A DNA stretch of 29,231 nucleotides, from positions 1 to 29,231 of IMG/VR virus record IMGVR_UViG_3300046095_000092. One strand, written 5' to 3'. Positions 3,026 through 29,231 of this stretch are shown in pieces. The notes below the pieces were generated by a model. The model was not told the DNA's origin. It ran no database searches and worked only from the letters and a program-made list of their open reading frames with translations. Positions within the stretch are counted from its first letter, which is position 1. Every line of letters begins with the position of its first letter. A program made the position numbers and the translations under genes. This stretch comes from a virus.

Positions 3026-3470
3026 TTACGGTAACACAGGGGAGTTCAATGTGCTATATCCTACACGTAGGAAGATGGCTACAATACTCAAGAGAATTTT
3101 AAGGAATGATATTGTGGATGGTGAGGGTACTCTTGTTGAGAGTATCCGTATCAATGCTAAGATAACAGGCTTCCAAAAATTGGAGATACAGATAGTAGCC
3201 ATGTACTACTTTATCTTTCTTAATAATGGTGCGTTTCTTTGGAATGGTGGAGTCATTACCCCTCGTGATTATGTAGCACAGTTTACGGATGAGCTAAACA
3301 ATGCAGGTATTACTGCAGAAATTTATCGGCAGTACACTGAATGGCTTACAAAAAAGTATCCATTGATAGAGGCAGTTGAGGTGCTTGAAAGACAGCAAAG
3401 AATAGTGTACACATTTGAGGCTCTTGACCCTCCTCCAGGATTCTCTCCTGACTATCCATTAGATGTCTAA
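3018..3470 (+). CDS. Hypothetical tail-region protein (150 aa)
   Basis: The product has 150 residues. It starts MASYGNTGEFNVLYPTRRK, has a basic stretch near residues 17-30 and then a hydrophobic core around 'IVAMYYFIFLNNGAFLWNGG' (about residues 60-80). It ends with a Pro-rich tail (EALDPPPGFSPDYP). The hydrophobic stretch contains Asn and Gly and looks more like a buried core than a membrane span. It lies in the tail and fibre block, translationally coupled to the 47-residue gene. Its 3' end overlaps the 3' end of the opposing minus-strand gene by 12 bases. I believe similar proteins occur beside tail genes in other Bacteroidota phages, but their function is not known to me. Confidence 0.55.
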   Translation: MASYGNTGEFNVLYPTRRKMATILKRILRNDIVDGEGTLVESIRINAKITGFQKLEIQIVAMYYFIFLNNGAFLWNGGVITPRDYVAQFTDELNNAGITAEIYRQYTEWLTKKYPLIEAVEVLERQQRIVYTFEALDPPPGFSPDYPLDV

Positions 3471-4199
3471 TTCTTTTTTCATAGACAGCACATTAAACAC
3501 ATAGATGAGAGGTAGAGCTCCTACCTTTTCACTCTTAGTTATATCCCCATTGCTCAACCCGTAGATGGTTTGCTCCCATGACCACTTAGTTTGTGCCTGC
3601 TCTTTCTCTATCTCTTTGATTTCCTCAGGGTCCATCTCCCTACGCTCCTGATCGTTTAGGTCCTGATCTAATTCGCCAGTAAACAAGTTCTCATAGTTTT
3701 TTAGGAATGTATCCCTGTACTTAAGGAACTCATTTATTATCCCATACACATCTGTGATTGGTAGGTCATGAAATTTCTCAGCTCTGATATTACAGTCAAA
3801 CTCATAGGGCTCAAGTATCTCCTCACCCCATTCATTTTGCTTGCTATGCCGGTAGCAGATGGCACATACTTTATCAAGATTTGTGACGTAGTTATCTGTG
3901 AAATAATAGTCAAGGTCAATGTACTCATAAAGAGTGAGCTTGTTAAATGGCTTAAACTTCATTCCTAACAGCTCATGCTTATAATTTTTAGATGGCTCAG
4001 AGGCACACCAATTATTCTCTTGAATTAACTCAGTGAGCTCATCCACATCTAGGTCCTCAATAACCTCAATAGGCTCATCTGATAAAATAGAAAGAGCCTC
4101 ACTATTATAGTAGTAGGCTCCCTGGTCTTTTGCTATCTGATTAAATTCAATGAACTGCTCAAGCGTTACTTGGCTCCATTGTTTGGGTACTTGTATCAT
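3459..4199 (-). CDS. Tail assembly chaperone-like protein, larger (246 aa)
   Basis: This is one of only two genes on the minus strand. The start 'MIQVPKQWSQVTLEQFIEFN' resembles the start of the neighbouring upstream gene (LDEITIEQFETI), so the two share a domain. That N-terminal pattern is common in tail assembly chaperone candidates of Bacteroidota phages. The remainder is acidic, with a strongly charged segment (NDQERREMDPEEIKEIEKEQ) and a hydrophobic C-terminus (ALPLIYVFNVLSM). Its start lies inside the upstream gene (41-base overlap, +1 frame), so the pair is translationally coupled. Position between tail genes and head genes fits a chaperone that binds the tape measure protein; I infer this from context and sequence style. 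Confidence 0.45.
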   Translation of the reverse strand: MIQVPKQWSQVTLEQFIEFNQIAKDQGAYYYNSEALSILSDEPIEVIEDLDVDELTELIQENNWCASEPSKNYKHELLGMKFKPFNKLTLYEYIDLDYYFTDNYVTNLDKVCAICYRHSKQNEWGEEILEPYEFDCNIRAEKFHDLPITDVYGIINEFLKYRDTFLKNYENLFTGELDQDLNDQERREMDPEEIKEIEKEQAQTKWSWEQTIYGLSNGDITKSEKVGALPLIYVFNVLSMKKELDI

Positions 4200-4710
4200 T
4201 CTTTACTTGTTGGCTGATTTTCTCAGCAATAAACATAAGATAAGGTATAGCTACATTTGCCATTAACTTTCTAATCAACTTTGCTTTATGCTTAATGTGT
4301 GCATCTGTATAGTGCTCAGCAGGGGTAAGGTCCTCCCGTTTAAACATGACTGCTAACATCTCAGATACATAGCCTTTCTGTTTATGTAAAGCTATTTTTT
4401 CAATCATCTTAGTATCCCGTACAGTTAACTTCATTTGTGCTCGGTAGATGTATCCCTCAAGCTCAAGCTCCTCAACTGTTTCATATTCTTTTTGATCAAG
4501 GCTATTAAATTCTTTAACTACATTAACAAAATCTGCCACATCATAATCCCAAAACTCAGACTCAGGGATACCAAGGTAAGTAAACACTTTTAGATGCTTA
4601 TCAATGGGGTCCAGGTTAGGGTCATTGTTAATATCGGTAATGGTTTCAAATTGCTCAATGGTTATCTCATCGAGTTGATTGGGAATTTCCCTGTTTAATA
4701 TACTTATCAT
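4159..4710 (-). CDS. Tail assembly chaperone-like protein, smaller (183 aa)
   Basis: I choose the ATG at 4710 (MISILNREIPNQLDEITIEQ) over an in-frame TTG at 4728. The ATG has an A-rich leader, and the TTG lies against the -7 box of the promoter. The product is acidic and helical; the N-terminal 'EITIEQFETI' recurs in the partner gene, and there is a basic helix near 'KHKAKLIRKLMAN' toward the C-terminus. The gene is first in a two-gene minus-strand unit and overlaps its partner by 41 bases. In lambda-like phages two chaperone products are made by -1 frameshifting; here they are separate overlapping genes, and I found no suitable slippery heptamer in the overlap. Confidence 0.45.
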   Translation of the reverse strand: MISILNREIPNQLDEITIEQFETITDINNDPNLDPIDKHLKVFTYLGIPESEFWDYDVADFVNVVKEFNSLDQKEYETVEELELEGYIYRAQMKLTVRDTKMIEKIALHKQKGYVSEMLAVMFKREDLTPAEHYTDAHIKHKAKLIRKLMANVAIPYLMFIAEKISQQVKNDTSTQTMEPSNA

Positions 4711-4723
4711 GTTATAATTTTTG

Positions 4724-4752
4724 AACAAATATAGGAAAATTTTAATATAGGT
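4724..4752 (+). promoter_or_regulatory. Late promoter P-late2 (AACA-N15-TAATATAGGT)
   Basis: AACA lies at 4724-4727 and TAATATAGGT at 4743-4752, with one extra A before the ATG at 4754. The spacer is one base shorter than in the other copies, but the distance from AACA to the start codon is again 26 bases. A second ATATAGG at 4730-4736 lies between the two elements. Confidence 0.65.
4726..4733 (-). promoter_or_regulatory. Host-type promoter -7 box for the minus-strand gene pair
   Basis: On the minus strand this reads TATATTTG, an exact match to the Bacteroidota TAnnTTTG box, 15 bases before the ATG at 4710. I see no clear -33 TTG at the right distance. It overlaps the AACA of the opposite late promoter P-late2, so the two promoters share DNA. 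Confidence 0.5.
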
Positions 4753-4753
4753 A

Positions 4754-5710
4754 ATGGCTAAAGATAAAATCCCTACCTATACAATTACTATTGACCCGGC
4801 ATACGCTGAAAATGGGGAGGACCTTGGTATAGAGCAGATAGCTTTTACCTCTAATCCTGCCATCAAAGTAAAGGGAATGGCATTCAACTCCCAAGCTAAG
4901 CCTTTATTCTTTAATGATGAACTCAAGTATCGTATCACTGCACCTGCTTTGATACCTATGGAGATCTACCGATTGGATGAGGATAGCAAAGAGGAGTACA
5001 ATGTCAAGTTTACTAAGGAAGAGATAGAGCTAATTCATGGAAAATTCATGCAGCAGATGGTCAATCGAGACCTATTTAACCTGGAGCATGATCAATCTAT
5101 GACTGTTCCTGCGTATGTACTTGAGGCATGGATAGTAGACAACCCTAAAAAAGATAAGGCATACTCCACATTTGGTATTGAAGTACCTGAGGGTACGCTA
5201 ATGGTAACTGCCCAGGTTACTGATAAGGAATACTATGCAGAGCTTGTAGCACAAGATCAGATAGGCTTCTCCATTGAGGGATATCTTGGGATGAAATTAA
5301 AAGAGCAAACAAAAACAAAAACAAATATGAACAAGTTACCTGATGGAGAACACACTATCGAGGATAAAATCTACGTTGTAAAAGATGGAGAGGTTATTGA
5401 GATACGTGATGTTGAAATGGAGGACACCTCAGAAGAGGTAGCCCTAGAAGATACTGTTATCGAAGAGGATACAGTAGAAGAGGAGACAATGGCGGTAGAC
5501 CCTGTAGTAGATGCAGAGGCTATCATTGCTATTGTACGACCTTTATTAGATGAGCACATGAATGCTGTAGCTGCAATGATTGCAGAGATGCGTAACCAAC
5601 TAGATGAGATACTTTCTACTGAGGTAGAAGATGAGGTGGTGATGGAGGATGTGACCTTGAGTGCACATCAAAGACTTAGTAACTTTGTAAAATTTAACAC
5701 AACAAAATAA
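4754..5710 (+). CDS. Prohead protease fused to scaffold (XkdF-like)
   Basis: This 318-residue protein has a protease half followed by a scaffold half. The N-terminal 185 residues look like an XkdF-type phage protease: a histidine in 'FNLEHDQ' (His112), 'YVLEAWIVDN', and a serine in 'DQIGFSIEGYLGM' (Ser173). His and Ser are the catalytic residues expected in assemblin-type prohead proteases. From about residue 190 the sequence becomes acidic and coiled-coil-like (EDTSEEVALEDTV, EEDTVEEETMAV), as in scaffolding domains that are cleaved during capsid maturation. It lies just upstream of the capsid gene, as is usual, and is expressed from P-late2. Self-cleavage and delta-domain processing are inferred from the family. 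Confidence 0.75.
   Translation: MAKDKIPTYTITIDPAYAENGEDLGIEQIAFTSNPAIKVKGMAFNSQAKPLFFNDELKYRITAPALIPMEIYRLDEDSKEEYNVKFTKEEIELIHGKFMQQMVNRDLFNLEHDQSMTVPAYVLEAWIVDNPKKDKAYSTFGIEVPEGTLMVTAQVTDKEYYAELVAQDQIGFSIEGYLGMKLKEQTKTKTNMNKLPDGEHTIEDKIYVVKDGEVIEIRDVEMEDTSEEVALEDTVIEEDTVEEETMAVDPVVDAEAIIAIVRPLLDEHMNAVAAMIAEMRNQLDEILSTEVEDEVVMEDVTLSAHQRLSNFVKFNTTK
5657..5687 (+). promoter_or_regulatory. Possible host-type promoter before the capsid gene
   Basis: TTG at 5657-5659, 20 bases, then TAACTTTG at 5680-5687 fits the Bacteroidota consensus. It lies in the last codons of the protease gene, so it could be chance. The leader that follows is A/C-rich (AACAACAAACAAA before the ATG at 5722), a type linked to strong translation in this phylum. 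Confidence 0.35.
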
Positions 5711-7246: not shown

Positions 7247-7274
7247 TTTAATATCCTGCCTCTCTATATATTAG

Positions 7275-7303
7275 AGCCCTGCCGTAATGGTGGGGCTTTT
7301 TTT
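7275..7303 (+). terminator. Rho-independent terminator after the tail tube gene
   Basis: AGCCC at 7275-7279 pairs with GGGCT at 7293-7297, with additional inner G-C pairs, and a run of seven T follows (7297-7303). It ends the head transcript just before late promoter P-late3. Confidence 0.85.
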
Positions 7304-7306
7304 ATG

Positions 7307-7336
7307 AACATTTGACAAAGCTAAATTAATATAGGT
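7307..7336 (+). promoter_or_regulatory. Late promoter P-late3 (AACA-N16-TAATATAGGT)
   Basis: AACA is at 7307-7310, followed by a 16-base spacer and TAATATAGGT at 7327-7336 abutting the GTG at 7337. It follows directly after a terminator, the expected place for a new promoter, which supports a transcription role for the motif. Confidence 0.7.
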
Positions 7337-7687
7337 GTGATTTACATTGAACAGGGAGTTATTAATCAGTTTGTCTTGACCTTAACAGAGGTAACAACTG
7401 TACCCACACCAAACTATTTATTTGTATTCACTAACGAAATGAATACCACTAGCACACCACAGCTATTCACAGCTCCTGATACAAGTGCTTACCCTGAAAG
7501 ATACAACCTGTTTGCTCTAGATGAGCCTACAGATATCATACTAATTAAAGGGCAGTACACTTACCAGGTATATGAGAGCTCAACTGCATACGTTCTACCC
7601 CTTACAATAGCTCAGACTACAGGAGTAGTAATTGAGGAGGGGAGAATGGTTGTAAGTGGTCCTGCAGGTAACTCAATATACGATTAA
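7337..7687 (+). CDS. Hypothetical virion-region protein (116 aa)
   Basis: The gene starts with GTG (MIYIEQGVINQFVLTLTEV); the start is fixed by the adjoining promoter box. The 116 residues are predicted to be almost all beta ('NYLFVFTNEM', 'QYTYQVYESSTAYV', 'GVVIEEGRMVV'), like a small Ig-like or jelly-roll domain. It is first in the portal-to-lysis block and ends two bases before the portal gene. It may be a decoration or adaptor protein; similar proteins beside portal genes in Bacteroidota phages lack a known function as far as I know. Confidence 0.55.
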   Translation: MIYIEQGVINQFVLTLTEVTTVPTPNYLFVFTNEMNTTSTPQLFTAPDTSAYPERYNLFALDEPTDIILIKGQYTYQVYESSTAYVLPLTIAQTTGVVIEEGRMVVSGPAGNSIYD

Positions 7688-10640: not shown

Positions 10641-11086
10641 GATACTTACTACCTATATTGATACTCATTGTATCCTGCTCAGCTCCTAAGCGAGCTCAAT
10701 GGCACTATAAGAAAGCATTAAAGAATGGCCTGCAAGTAGTACAGGATAGTGATACCATCCGCATTACTACAGTTGACAGCATCCCAGTGATACACAATGA
10801 CACTATAGTGTGGGAGAAGTTCTATACTACTAAGGATACGGTCATTAAGTTCAACAATATATACGTGCCTAAGACTAGATTTCAAACAAGGATAGAGTAC
10901 AGGTACAAGACCAGGGTTGAAAGGATAAGAGGTAAGACTATATACAAAACAGCTCAAGCTGAGCAGGTAGTTAAGTACAGATGGGCATGGTGGCCTATTG
11001 TGATTTCGTTTATAATCGGTATATTGCTCCGTTTTTTAATTCAAAAGGGGCTGCTAGATAGGATAGCCCTGCTATTTAAGCTATGA
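10637..11086 (+). CDS. Unimolecular spanin candidate (lipoprotein with C-terminal membrane helix)
   Basis: The 149-residue product begins with a lipoprotein signal (MRYLLPILILIVSC) with the lipid-modified Cys at 14. The middle is periplasmic, rich in beta and charged residues (DTIRITTVDSIPVIHNDTIV and similar). A membrane helix lies at about residues 117-136 (WAWWPIVISFIIGILLRF), followed by a short tail. An outer-membrane lipid anchor at one end and an inner-membrane helix at the other define a u-spanin, which disrupts the outer membrane in the last lysis step. Position directly after holin and amidase supports this. The Ser at +2 after Cys would allow outer-membrane sorting by E. coli rules. 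Confidence 0.7.
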   Translation: MRYLLPILILIVSCSAPKRAQWHYKKALKNGLQVVQDSDTIRITTVDSIPVIHNDTIVWEKFYTTKDTVIKFNNIYVPKTRFQTRIEYRYKTRVERIRGKTIYKTAQAEQVVKYRWAWWPIVISFIIGILLRFLIQKGLLDRIALLFKL

Positions 11087-12074: not shown

Positions 12075-12103
12075 TTGCAGATATGAAACCTTTTATATCT
12101 TTG
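12075..12103 (+). promoter_or_regulatory. Early promoter (TTG-N18-TATCTTTG)
   Basis: TTG at 12075-12077, 18 bases, then TATCTTTG at 12096-12103 matches the Bacteroidota housekeeping promoter. Transcription should start shortly after, giving a leader of about 25 bases before the ATG at 12132. Confidence 0.7.
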
Positions 12104-12131: not shown

Positions 12132-12311
12132 ATGGAACGGTTTAACCAACAATTTAACAGATCCCTTGACTTTATCAAGGCAAACGAAAACAATGCAGAA
12201 GTGCTTACTTTTTTCCTAGAGCAACTGCTTGTAGAAGCTAATGAGGAAATGACCAAAGTAGCACTAGATCACACCGAAGATTTTTTAACCATCTTAAACG
12301 CTAACAAATGA
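12132..12311 (+). CDS. Small early protein (59 aa)
   Basis: This is the first gene after the early promoter. The 59 residues (starting MERFNQQFNRSLDFIK) are acidic and predicted to be almost all helical, with no Cys and no membrane segment. The spacing from the promoter, an A/T-rich leader (AAAATTTATTT) and an ATGA overlap with the next start support it as a real gene. A role in early takeover of the host is possible from its position, but nothing in the sequence names one. Confidence 0.65.
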   Translation: MERFNQQFNRSLDFIKANENNAEVLTFFLEQLLVEANEEMTKVALDHTEDFLTILNANK

Positions 12312-13773: not shown

Positions 13774-13961
13774 TGAAATACGTAAAATACTACAGAATGT
13801 GGCTCGAAGATACAGTAGAGCCAGAGGGTGGATTTTGGTGCTATATGGGAGCTGATGAGAAAAACTTTCTTTATCAGTTAAACTTCCCCTACAAAGAGAA
13901 TGAAGAACCTGAAACCTTAGAACAATACCTTGAATGGGGGTACAAAATTGAACAGCTATGA
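13773..13961 (+). CDS. Hypothetical protein (62 aa), aromatic and acidic
   Basis: The product is rich in aromatic residues (MKYVKYYRMWLEDTVEPEGG, 'FWCYMGADEKNFLYQLNFPY') and acidic in its second half ('KENEEPETLEQYLEWGY'). It is coupled by TAATG on one side and ATGA on the other, inside a tight early operon. I do not recognise the family. Confidence 0.55.
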   Translation: MKYVKYYRMWLEDTVEPEGGFWCYMGADEKNFLYQLNFPYKENEEPETLEQYLEWGYKIEQL

Positions 13962-14469: not shown

Positions 14470-14672
14470 ATGACCCTATGACGATGTGACGATACTCTTA
14501 TGGGGGGTACTGAATATATAGAGCACTAAAAAAGTTTGCGTTCTGGAAAATTTATCGTCTTATCGTCATGGAATAGCTGAAACCCAATACAGCACTAGTT
14601 TATAGCCGTGACGATGATTTTATTTTATCGTCATTAATTGTCTTTTTATCGTCATTTATTATATTTGTAACC
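14456..14672. other. Candidate replication origin with seven iterons
   Basis: This 217-bp non-coding stretch carries seven copies of a short word. TGACGAT occurs at 14479-14485, 14487-14493 and 14609-14615. Its complement ATCGTC occurs at 14554-14559, 14562-14567, 14627-14632 and 14648-14653, and all but the first of these extend to ATCGTCA. The first two copies lie 8 bp apart, as do copies three and four in the opposite direction; the last two are 21 bp apart. AT-rich DNA surrounds copies five to seven. Iterons next to a primase-helicase gene and a DnaA domain IV-like gene are typical of an origin, but this is not proven. Confidence 0.65.
14638..14667 (+). promoter_or_regulatory. Replication promoter (TTG-N19-TATATTTG)
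   Basis: TTG at 14638-14640, 19 bases, then TATATTTG at 14660-14667 matches the host consensus. Iteron seven lies inside the spacer, so a protein bound there would block the promoter. Only five bases separate the box from the ATG at 14673, so the mRNA should be nearly leaderless. Confidence 0.7.
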
Positions 14673-17857: not shown

Positions 17858-17877
17858 ATATATAATTTGTATATTTG
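17851..17877 (+). promoter_or_regulatory. Recombination operon promoter (TATATTTG box)
   Basis: TATATTTG at 17870-17877 is an exact -7 box. The best -33 element, TTTG at 17851-17854, is only 15 bases away, shorter than usual, so the upstream element is uncertain. The leader to the ATG at 17900 is about 20 bases and AT-rich. Confidence 0.6.
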
Positions 17878-21055: not shown

Positions 21056-21249
21056 AGATAATAGATAAGATAGATGCTACTGCAGATGCTGTAAAGTATT
21101 CTAAGCACTCATGTGTGCAGCTCTATAAGATACGGGTTAAGTATGATGGCCCACAGCCTCGTGAGTGCTTCTGTGCATCTGTTAGGCGTAAGGTGTGGTA
21201 CAAAGACTTTATGAATTGGTATGAAAAGAGTCTTAGACAGGTACATTAG
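21034..21249 (+). CDS. Hypothetical basic protein (71 aa)
   Basis: The product (MFEQTDIEIIDKIDATADAV, then 'HSCVQLYKIRVKYDGPQPRE', 'CFCASVRRKVWYKDFMNWYE') has an acidic helix, then a basic Cys-containing second half. It may bind nucleic acid, although no known fold stands out. It overlaps the sigma gene by 29 bases, so the two are probably translated together, and it could be a partner of the sigma factor. Confidence 0.5.
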   Translation: MFEQTDIEIIDKIDATADAVKYSKHSCVQLYKIRVKYDGPQPRECFCASVRRKVWYKDFMNWYEKSLRQVH

Positions 21250-21766
21250 TACCCATTACCATGAGGTCAGGGCTTATACGCTGTACTTTCTCACTAAGAT
21301 GGGGAGTAATATCGAAGCGGATACTGTTATTAACAATAGCTACCTCCATGTACTAAGCATAAATGAGGATACCACAAGTGAAACCCAGGTGAAGAGCTAT
21401 CTGCTTAACACTATCAAGTATCAGATACTATGGAACACCTCACTCAGCCATAAGGATGATAGGGTTACTTCTATGGAGTATGACCCCAGTGAGCAGGAGG
21501 ATAACGAGCAGGACCTACAGGCTAAGATACTGGAGGATAAGATATACAGCACTCACAAGGGGCTGATAGAGATATACAGAAGCGAGATAGATGATCATGT
21601 GCACAGGATAGTATTTGAGGCATACATAGATAAGGGATACACCACAGCAAGAGGGATGGCTAAGTACTTTGATATACCGGTAACATCTGCTCACTATCTG
21701 ATTAGAGAAATTAAACAAAATCTTAGAAAATTACAATATAGGTATGAGACTATCTCAAATAATTAG
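21221..21766 (+). CDS. ECF-like RNA polymerase sigma factor (candidate late activator)
   Basis: The 181 residues follow the layout of a two-domain (group 4, ECF) sigma factor. Residues 8-80 resemble region 2: 'YISTHYHEVRAYTLYFLTKM', 'EADTVINNSYLHVL', and 'VKSYLLNTIKYQIL', which recalls the 'WL..IA.N' helix of ECF factors. An acidic linker follows (DPSEQEDNEQDLQ). Residues 125-172 resemble region 4, ending in a helix-turn-helix 'GMAKYFDIPVTSAHYLIREI'. There is no anti-sigma gene next to it. It is the last gene of the early operon, and a late promoter (P-late5) lies within its 3' end. I infer that it redirects host polymerase to the AACA...AATATAGGT promoters. The family match is by eye. Confidence 0.65.
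   Translation: MKRVLDRYISTHYHEVRAYTLYFLTKMGSNIEADTVINNSYLHVLSINEDTTSETQVKSYLLNTIKYQILWNTSLSHKDDRVTSMEYDPSEQEDNEQDLQAKILEDKIYSTHKGLIEIYRSEIDDHVHRIVFEAYIDKGYTTARGMAKYFDIPVTSAHYLIREIKQNLRKLQYRYETISNN
21714..21743 (+). promoter_or_regulatory. Late promoter P-late5 (AACA-N16-CAATATAGGT)
   Basis: AACA at 21714-21717, 16 bases, then CAATATAGGT at 21734-21743 abutting the ATG at 21744. It lies wholly inside the sigma gene coding sequence, so it would start the packaging transcript from within the activator gene. Confidence 0.65.
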
Positions 21767-24114: not shown

Positions 24115-24144
24115 AACAAAACACCAGGATAAAATAATATAGGT
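24115..24144 (+). promoter_or_regulatory. Late promoter P-late4 (AACA-N16-TAATATAGGT)
   Basis: AACA at 24115-24118 and TAATATAGGT at 24135-24144 abut the ATG at 24145. It lies in the 31-base gap after the terminase gene. A second AACA occurs nearby (24120-24123), so the exact upstream element is less certain than in the other copies. Confidence 0.6.
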
Positions 24145-28457: not shown

Positions 28458-29231
28458 ATGAATGAAGTAGAGATACCATTAAAGCTCGGCGGCATAGCTG
28501 CCATTAAAGCAGAGCTCAGAGACTTACAAGGTCAAATAGCTAATGCAGGTGATGCTGATACCATGACTGAATTGGCTCAGCAAGCAGGAGCATTAAAGGA
28601 TCAAATTAAGGATGCCAATGAACAGGTAGCTATCTTTGCTACAGGGTCAAAATTTGAGACAGTATCCAATAGCTTTGGTGCTATTAAGAATGACCTAATG
28701 AGCCTAGACTTTGAGGGTGCCTCACAAAAGGCTGCCATCTTTGCAACTACATTAGCTGCGTTAAAACCTGAGGATTTAAAAAAGTCATTTAAAGATTTTA
28801 AGGGTACACTCAAAAGTGTAGGAGATGGCTTCACGTCATTGGGTAAGACCTTGATGGCTAATCCTATGTTCCTGATTGCTGCAGTCATTGCAGCTATTGT
28901 GGCTATAGTGGTGGTATTGATGCATAAGCTAGGCTACCTGGACCCAATCATTGAGGCTATAGGTACAGCATTTGATGCACTCATTGAAGTTATTAAGCAA
29001 TTTGGTGAGAGCCTAGGTATTGTATCAGGTCAGACTGAGGAGTTTATTAGAATGCAGGAGGCTAATACTGAGGCCAACAAAGCAATGGAGGACTCAGCAG
29101 TAGGTGTGATCACTACAGTGAATGAGGTAGGAACTGCATTTGACCTAGCTAAGGAGGGAGTAATATCTAAAGAGGAGGCACTTGCTACCTACAATGAGAA
29201 GCTAGGTGATACATTTGGTGAAGCCACTACA
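28458..29231 (+). CDS. Tail tape measure protein, N-terminal part (cut by window end)
   Basis: The gene starts one base after the previous stop. 258 codons lie in the window: 'MNEVEIPLKLGGIAAIKAEL', a helical region, then a membrane-like helix at about residues 138-155 (FLIAAVIAAIVAIVVVLM). Long helices with a hydrophobic segment are characteristic of tape measure proteins, which also help DNA pass the inner membrane. The reading frame continues without a break at base 3 of the window and ends at 1652. The overlap copies differ by one codon (GAA here, GCA at the start of the window). Confidence 0.85.
   Translation, partial: MNEVEIPLKLGGIAAIKAELRDLQGQIANAGDADTMTELAQQAGALKDQIKDANEQVAIFATGSKFETVSNSFGAIKNDLMSLDFEGASQKAAIFATTLAALKPEDLKKSFKDFKGTLKSVGDGFTSLGKTLMANPMFLIAAVIAAIVAIVVVLMHKLGYLDPIIEAIGTAFDALIEVIKQFGESLGIVSGQTEEFIRMQEANTEANKAMEDSAVGVITTVNEVGTAFDLAKEGVISKEEALATYNEKLGDTFGEATT
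29095..29231. repeat. Terminal overlap, copy 2 (circular closure)
   Basis: This is the second copy of the sequence at 1-137, identical except for a at 29221. It overlaps codons 213 onward of the tape measure gene. Confidence 0.9.

Follow-up and report, generated by a model that had tools for sequence, protein, structure and literature searches.

The window is the whole 29,231-nucleotide stretch of viral DNA that we analyzed. Its ends, positions 1-137 and 29095-29231, carry a 137-base terminal direct repeat with one mismatch, and the window therefore spans an entire genome, circularly permuted and 29,094 bases (~29.1 kb) long, although it is catalogued as a plain virus record. Nearly all genes lie on the plus strand. 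The circle starts with packaging, encoded by the small (22411) and large (22962) terminase genes, followed by genes for a 488-aa and a 950-aa protein, the tape measure gene (28458, across the join to 1652) and a tail-like gene (2119). Next are genes for a protease (4754, Peptidase_S78_2), a capsid-like protein (5722), the portal (7690), a holin (9545) and an amidase (9960). The replication block comprises exonuclease (11083 and 18439), primase (14673), ERF (17900) and SSB-like (20270) genes. This early block is closed by the gene of a 181-aa protein (21221-21766, plus strand), a predicted ECF-like late sigma factor. The minus strand carries two genes, 4710-4159 and 4199-3459. These lie between the tail-like and protease genes (3459-4710), are conserved and are apparently served by a host-type promoter. 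An Rfam search matched no RNA family.

We observed that the pattern AACA-N16/17-AATATAGGT occurs at five sites in the window, all on the plus strand and each directly 5' of a start codon. The chance expectation is 0.04 per window (the largest count in 100 shuffles was 1), and the reversed pattern, used as a control, gave no match in the window. AACA lies at 2089, 4724, 7307, 21714 and 24115, in each case with 26 bases between it and the start codons at 2119, 4754, 7337, 21744 and 24145, in agreement with the coordinates reported in an earlier, sequence-only reading. Predicted late promoter 1 (2089-2118) consists of AACA at 2089-2092, N17 and AATATAGGT at 2110-2118, and abuts the ATG of the tail-like gene at 2119. 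Predicted late promoter 2 (4724-4752) has AACA at 4724-4727, N16 and AATATAGGT at 4744-4752, and precedes the ATG at 4754 of an S78-type prohead protease gene, with the capsid-like gene 5722 next. The third (7307-7336; AACA 7307-7310, N17, AATATAGGT 7328-7336) abuts a GTG at 7337, a start that is frequently ATG in relatives, and heads a gene for a 116-aa protein followed by portal, holin and amidase. An intrinsic terminator (7273-7299, plus strand) lies directly 5' of this site, and a hairpin with a T-run is also present upstream of the orthologs. The fourth (21714-21743; AACA 21714-21717, N17, AATATAGGT 21735-21743, ATG 21744) lies within the 3' end of the sigma-like gene and heads the small and large terminase genes. 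The fifth (24115-24144; AACA 24115-24118, N17, AATATAGGT 24136-24144, ATG 24145) heads the genes for the 488-aa, 950-aa and tape measure proteins. The tail-like, protease-capsid, portal-lysis, packaging and 24145 tail blocks are thus each headed by a site.

The early genes carry promoters of another type. The -7 box of Bacteroidota sigma-A is TAHHTTTG (PMC6847099). We found a predicted host-type early promoter at 12075-12103 (plus strand; TTG-N18-TATCTTTG, TTG at 12075, box at 12096) before the gene at 12132, and a second at 14638-14667 (plus strand; TTG-N19-TATATTTG, TTG at 14638, box at 14660) before the primase gene. A host-type -7 box, TATATTTG, is located at 17870-17877 (plus strand) before the ERF annealing-protein gene 17900. 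The TAnnTTTG boxes that had been assigned to the early genes are real, and they are kept in 10/13, 14/33 and 28/32 orthologs, respectively. Before the five late genes, TAHHTTTG boxes gave 0-1 ortholog matches, and on the coding strand the late sites lack the TAnnTTTG of Bacteroidota sigma-A promoters that the early genes possess. The genome thus has two clean promoter classes, with the predicted sigma gene as the last early gene. A further host-type box, TATATTTG at 4726-4733 on the minus strand, is kept in 26/28 orthologs and would drive genes 4710-4159 and 4199-3459. This box overlaps the AACA (-35) of late promoter 2. Initiation there could thus additionally silence the leftward unit, with the late sigma possibly blocking access to the leftward early promoter at 4724-4733. 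The TATAGG string in the motif led us to consider a T7-like promoter read by a single-subunit RNA polymerase; we rejected this, as family searches of most of the larger ORFs in the window named no such enzyme.

The 181-aa protein had been read as an ECF-like sigma factor. Pfam, PHROGs and PDB sequence-profile searches with this protein gave no sigma match, and none of 25 diverse family members matched Pfam Sigma70_r2 or Sigma70_r4_2. Two AlphaFold (AF2) models, with mean pLDDT of 75 and 79 and a pTM of 0.40, predict three helices (residues 3-27, 33-43 and 54-74), a disordered, low-confidence linker (75-94) and a four-helix HTH domain (96-122, 126-136, 143-150 and 154-180). The predicted structure therefore resembles that of ECF sigmas, which have regions 2 and 4 only, a flexible linker and a length of about 150-200 aa. 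In Foldseek searches of the PDB, each of the best 50 listed matches of both models was a sigma factor, a sigma domain or a sigma mimic of the PhyR type, and the ECF sigmas SigL, SigH, SigE and AlgU were near the top (probability up to 1.00), with modest E-values of 2e-3 and up. The SigL initiation complex 6dv9 matched with a probability of 1.00 over 174 columns, and the sigma-4 domain 3hug gave a TMt of 0.60-0.64; the whole-chain TM is ~0.35 because the domain arrangement differs. Viral matches annotated as sigma-70/RpoE were collinear with the 181-aa protein. Alignment to 15 bacterial ECF sigmas with hhalign covered 136 collinear columns at a weak E of 0.036, compared to 12-31 columns and E of 0.16-0.38 for controls. 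These data largely support the prediction that the 181-aa protein has a strongly diverged, ECF-like two-domain sigma fold. The earlier identification is thus upheld at the level of the modeled fold, but not by the Pfam, PHROGs or PDB HMM searches; since there is no significant sequence-profile match, we name the protein ECF-like and do not file it as an ECF member. The best Foldseek match of both models was chain C of 9n9q, an entry deposited as an RNA-guided transcription complex.

Relatives were tblastn-confirmed homologues of the 181-aa protein, fetched from IMG/VR without using the motif. The full set, pattern-selected loci included, comprises 333 loci with a full gene and 202 distinct proteins, which fall into six clusters at 62% identity. 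Because an exact-pattern scan of IMG/VR contains chance matches (single sites, random gaps and large sigma-less contigs), our conclusions rest on the sigma-selected loci. Within the window's cluster, these carry the motif before the orthologs of 2119 (22/23), 21744 (55/59; the remaining 4 have AATATAGAT) and 24145 (47/49), a total of 124/131, and before other genes in 0/598 upstream regions. The ortholog counts for 4754 (20/27 in the AACA form, the others mostly in a TACA-N17 form) and 7337 (20/22) include motif-selected contigs. Among 23 near-complete sigma-selected records (27.8-31.6 kb), 22 had 4-5 sites and the other one had 2, essentially all on a single strand, with 0 matches for the reversed control. 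Sigma-lacking records of at least 25 kb that matched the pattern by chance had 0-1 site, with one exception that had 2; this truncated record of 25.8 kb starts just ahead of the 24145 site, and the sigma region may therefore be missing from it. The link between protein and sites suggested earlier is borne out, as in hundreds of contigs the motif accompanies the protein and stands before the same late genes. We also looked for relatives that keep the sigma-like gene without the motif, a combination that would have spoken against the link. Every cluster with more than one member keeps AACA-N17/18-AATAT immediately 5' of the start codon, and no examined clade of that size lacks it; this core alone is universal.

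Co-occurrence of protein and sites would also be compatible with another conserved phage factor as the reader. The sites could be late promoters served by an activator or DNA-binding protein that acts with host sigma-A, while the sigma-like protein is, for example, a PhyR-like decoy. Several other phage genes, such as that of the DnaA-HTH protein at 13958, are as conserved as the sigma gene, and PhyR sigma mimics are among the Foldseek matches listed. However, the late sites lack the TAHHTTTG box needed by host sigma-A, and two elements at a fixed 17 bp spacing are the layout of a sigma site. In addition, the sigma-like two-domain protein is present wherever near-complete records hold multiple sites, and its HTH residues T155, S156, A157 and I161 do not vary between clusters, which one would expect if the protein reads DNA but not if it is a decoy. 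We therefore consider another reader unlikely and favor the sigma-like protein itself.

The motif usually abuts the start codon, and it could also be a translation-initiation element in the mRNA, bound by the ribosome or an RNA-binding protein, for highly expressed late genes. Yet in relatives it is the AACA-N17-AATATAGGT spacing that is constant, whereas the distance to the start codon shifts between 0, 1, 2 or 10-12 bases. This is better matched by a promoter than by a translation signal, and it led us to replace the fixed rule of 26 bases from AACA to ATG by an N17 rule; at 4724, the earlier figure of 26 arises partly by coincidence, from an N16 spacer and 1 additional base. The longest distances belong to a sub-clade with a 10-12 nt leader between the motif and the ATG of the 24145 ortholog, which shows that it is the promoter, rather than the ribosome, that sets the position of the element. 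A translation element is further contradicted by its absence before other late genes of the same operons, e.g. capsid, portal and tape measure. Moreover, Flavobacterium initiation depends on A-rich Kozak-like positions (PMC6847099) and not a fixed bipartite 30-mer. Taken together, a role in translation initiation is highly improbable. The two conserved elements, their fixed spacing and their restriction to late genes are as expected of late promoters.

Site 4 lies in the last sigma codons (AAA CAA ... CAA TAT AGG TAT). From the window's clade we picked 83 distinct sigma genes by protein alone, so that the test is non-circular, and assessed their synonymous codon differences. The mean rate over codons 1-159 was 0.39, with zero at 4/155 codons. 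At codons 165, 166, 172, 173 and 175 the rate was 0, 0.02, 0, 0 and 0, and at codon 174 it was 0.09. This near-zero synonymous variation at the motif codons demonstrates selection on the DNA word, not on the protein alone. In clusters 2 and 3, the end of the sigma protein and site 4 are lost together. The discriminator, the 4 bases after AATAT, is nearly uniform in four clades, being AGGT in clusters 0 (180 sites) and 1 (73 sites), ATAT in cluster 3 (20/22) and AAGT in cluster 4 (38/39), and it is mixed AAGC/AGGT in cluster 2. The change in cluster 4 is identical at all 28 inspected sites, before three unlinked genes; that separate sites of one genome changed in the same way speaks for a single trans-acting reader common to them. 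Many of the contigs are closely related, and the sites might in principle be chance occurrences or inherited copies without function. This is opposed by the expectation of 0.04 per window, by motif positions that are invariant amid 17 freely varying spacer bases and by the parallel change at unlinked sites of one clade. The synonymous-codon selection already contradicts it, and we give this explanation practically no credence.

We thus favor, with high confidence, a model in which an ECF-like sigma serves five late promoters and most late mRNAs would be leaderless or nearly so. The sigma would be a late product of the early operon, expressed from host sigma-A-type promoters. With regions 2 and 4 only, it would bind host RNA polymerase and direct it to the five promoters, and thereby to the genes for packaging, capsid, portal/lysis and tail. 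Its region 4 would recognize AACA as the -35 element and its region 2 (T/C)AATAT as the -10 element, followed by the 4-base discriminator, AGGT in the window. In cellular bacteria, SigE-type ECF -35 elements contain AAC, and the SigE promoter is GGAACTT-N15-GTCTAA with the start 4-6 bases further. With AACA as -35 and (T/C)AATAT as -10, this geometry predicts that +1, after the discriminator, coincides with the A of the start codon or adjoins it. Most late mRNAs would hence be leaderless or nearly so, with the mRNA of site 2 nearly leaderless. Sigma binding at the sites, the start position and the timing are inferred. Since the apparent target sites lie directly against late start codons, the early-to-late switch can be read from the DNA.

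Several known systems resemble this one in part. T4 gp55 is a diverged phage late sigma that recognizes a -10-only TATAAATA promoter with the sliding clamp and gp33. A diverged phage sigma for late genes is common to both, whereas a -35 element and a region-4-like HTH are present here. Cellular ECF sigmas (SigL, SigH, SigE and AlgU), which we compared together with the SM6 promoters of Flavobacterium psychrophilum (PMC9723704), share the two helical domains with a linker and the spacing of about 16-17 bp. In contrast, the protein has no significant sequence similarity to them, the -10 element is AATAT and not CGT, and no anti-sigma gene was identified here. The phage AR9 has late promoters of the form AACA-N6-T(A/G), read by a phage multisubunit polymerase, with 5' UTRs of 26-491 nt (PMC5312081). 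The resemblance is limited to AACA and superficial, as the spacing there is 6.

The closest precedent is set by phiEco32 gp36 and its relatives, phage-borne late sigmas of the ECF type (PMC4281155, PMC4331800). As in the model for the present genome, a phage-encoded ECF-type sigma takes over host polymerase for middle/late genes, early genes use host promoters, and the promoters are few, well conserved and AT-rich, in phiEco32 tAATGTATAtA located 6-8 nt upstream of the start (PMC4281155, PMC4331800). The kind of system is therefore already known and this one would work like it; the earlier proposal of a simple switch, distinct from those of T4 and lambda, is broadly correct, though phiEco32 had already supplied an ECF late sigma. 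Promoters of the phiEco32 group have a -10-type motif with no conserved -35 described (PMC4281155, PMC4331800), whereas the sites here have a fixed -35 AACA, a different sequence and a start codon fused to the promoter. The host promoters here are of the Bacteroidota type, and the sigma gene heads no promoter of its own. What is new is the unrecognized sigma family, the bipartite promoter fused to start codons and the promoter within the sigma gene's own end.

A tblastn search of the phage collection with the sigma-like protein found no phiEco32-group phage and no cultured member, and no cultured phage relatives of the protein were found by DNA or protein search. Other genes of the window gave distant portal and primase matches only, in Nonlabens, Flavobacterium, Polaribacter and Bacteroides phages. 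These results suggest a large, uncultured, Bacteroidota-type phage group that carries a highly diverged sigma factor. Probably, the whole lineage expresses its late (virion) proteins from leaderless mRNAs, using start-codon-fused promoters read by a profile-invisible sigma family, with which their discriminator has co-evolved clade by clade. In Flavobacterium, leaderless mRNAs form the minority (PMC9723704, PMC6847099), with 5.5% in F. psychrophilum (PMC9723704), and the prediction therefore merits a test; if true, virion genes would be expressed without leaders in a host phylum where such mRNAs are a small minority. The analysis gives a readable early/late program to a large metagenome-only phage group that sequence annotation leaves 'hypothetical'. 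It also provides a series of naturally occurring sigma/promoter pairs that share a fixed core and differ in the discriminator from clade to clade. Sigma-promoter co-evolution and leaderless translation in Bacteroidota are directly testable with short synthetic constructs, and the pairs may find use as orthogonal parts for gene expression in this phylum, in which promoters from E. coli fail.

We made three further observations. A 29.6-kb relative, L210 (JAIXRY010000011.1), was assigned to a bacterial MAG of ~0.8 Mb, from a phylum whose other listed members measure 0.5-1.1 Mb; the phage promoters, however, look Bacteroidota-like, and this placement is probably a mis-binning. An antisense AATATAGGT lies at 10651-10659 (minus strand) within gene 10637, with AGCA in the window and AACA at N16 in the L015 record, and is possibly a coding coincidence or an antisense late promoter. 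Finally, at 47 cluster 2 loci (e.g. L294), AACA-N17-AATATAGAT followed by GTG/ATG occurs at the gene after sigma, inside a reading frame (V-D-N-I-D-V); this could be a coding coincidence or site 4 in a new position.
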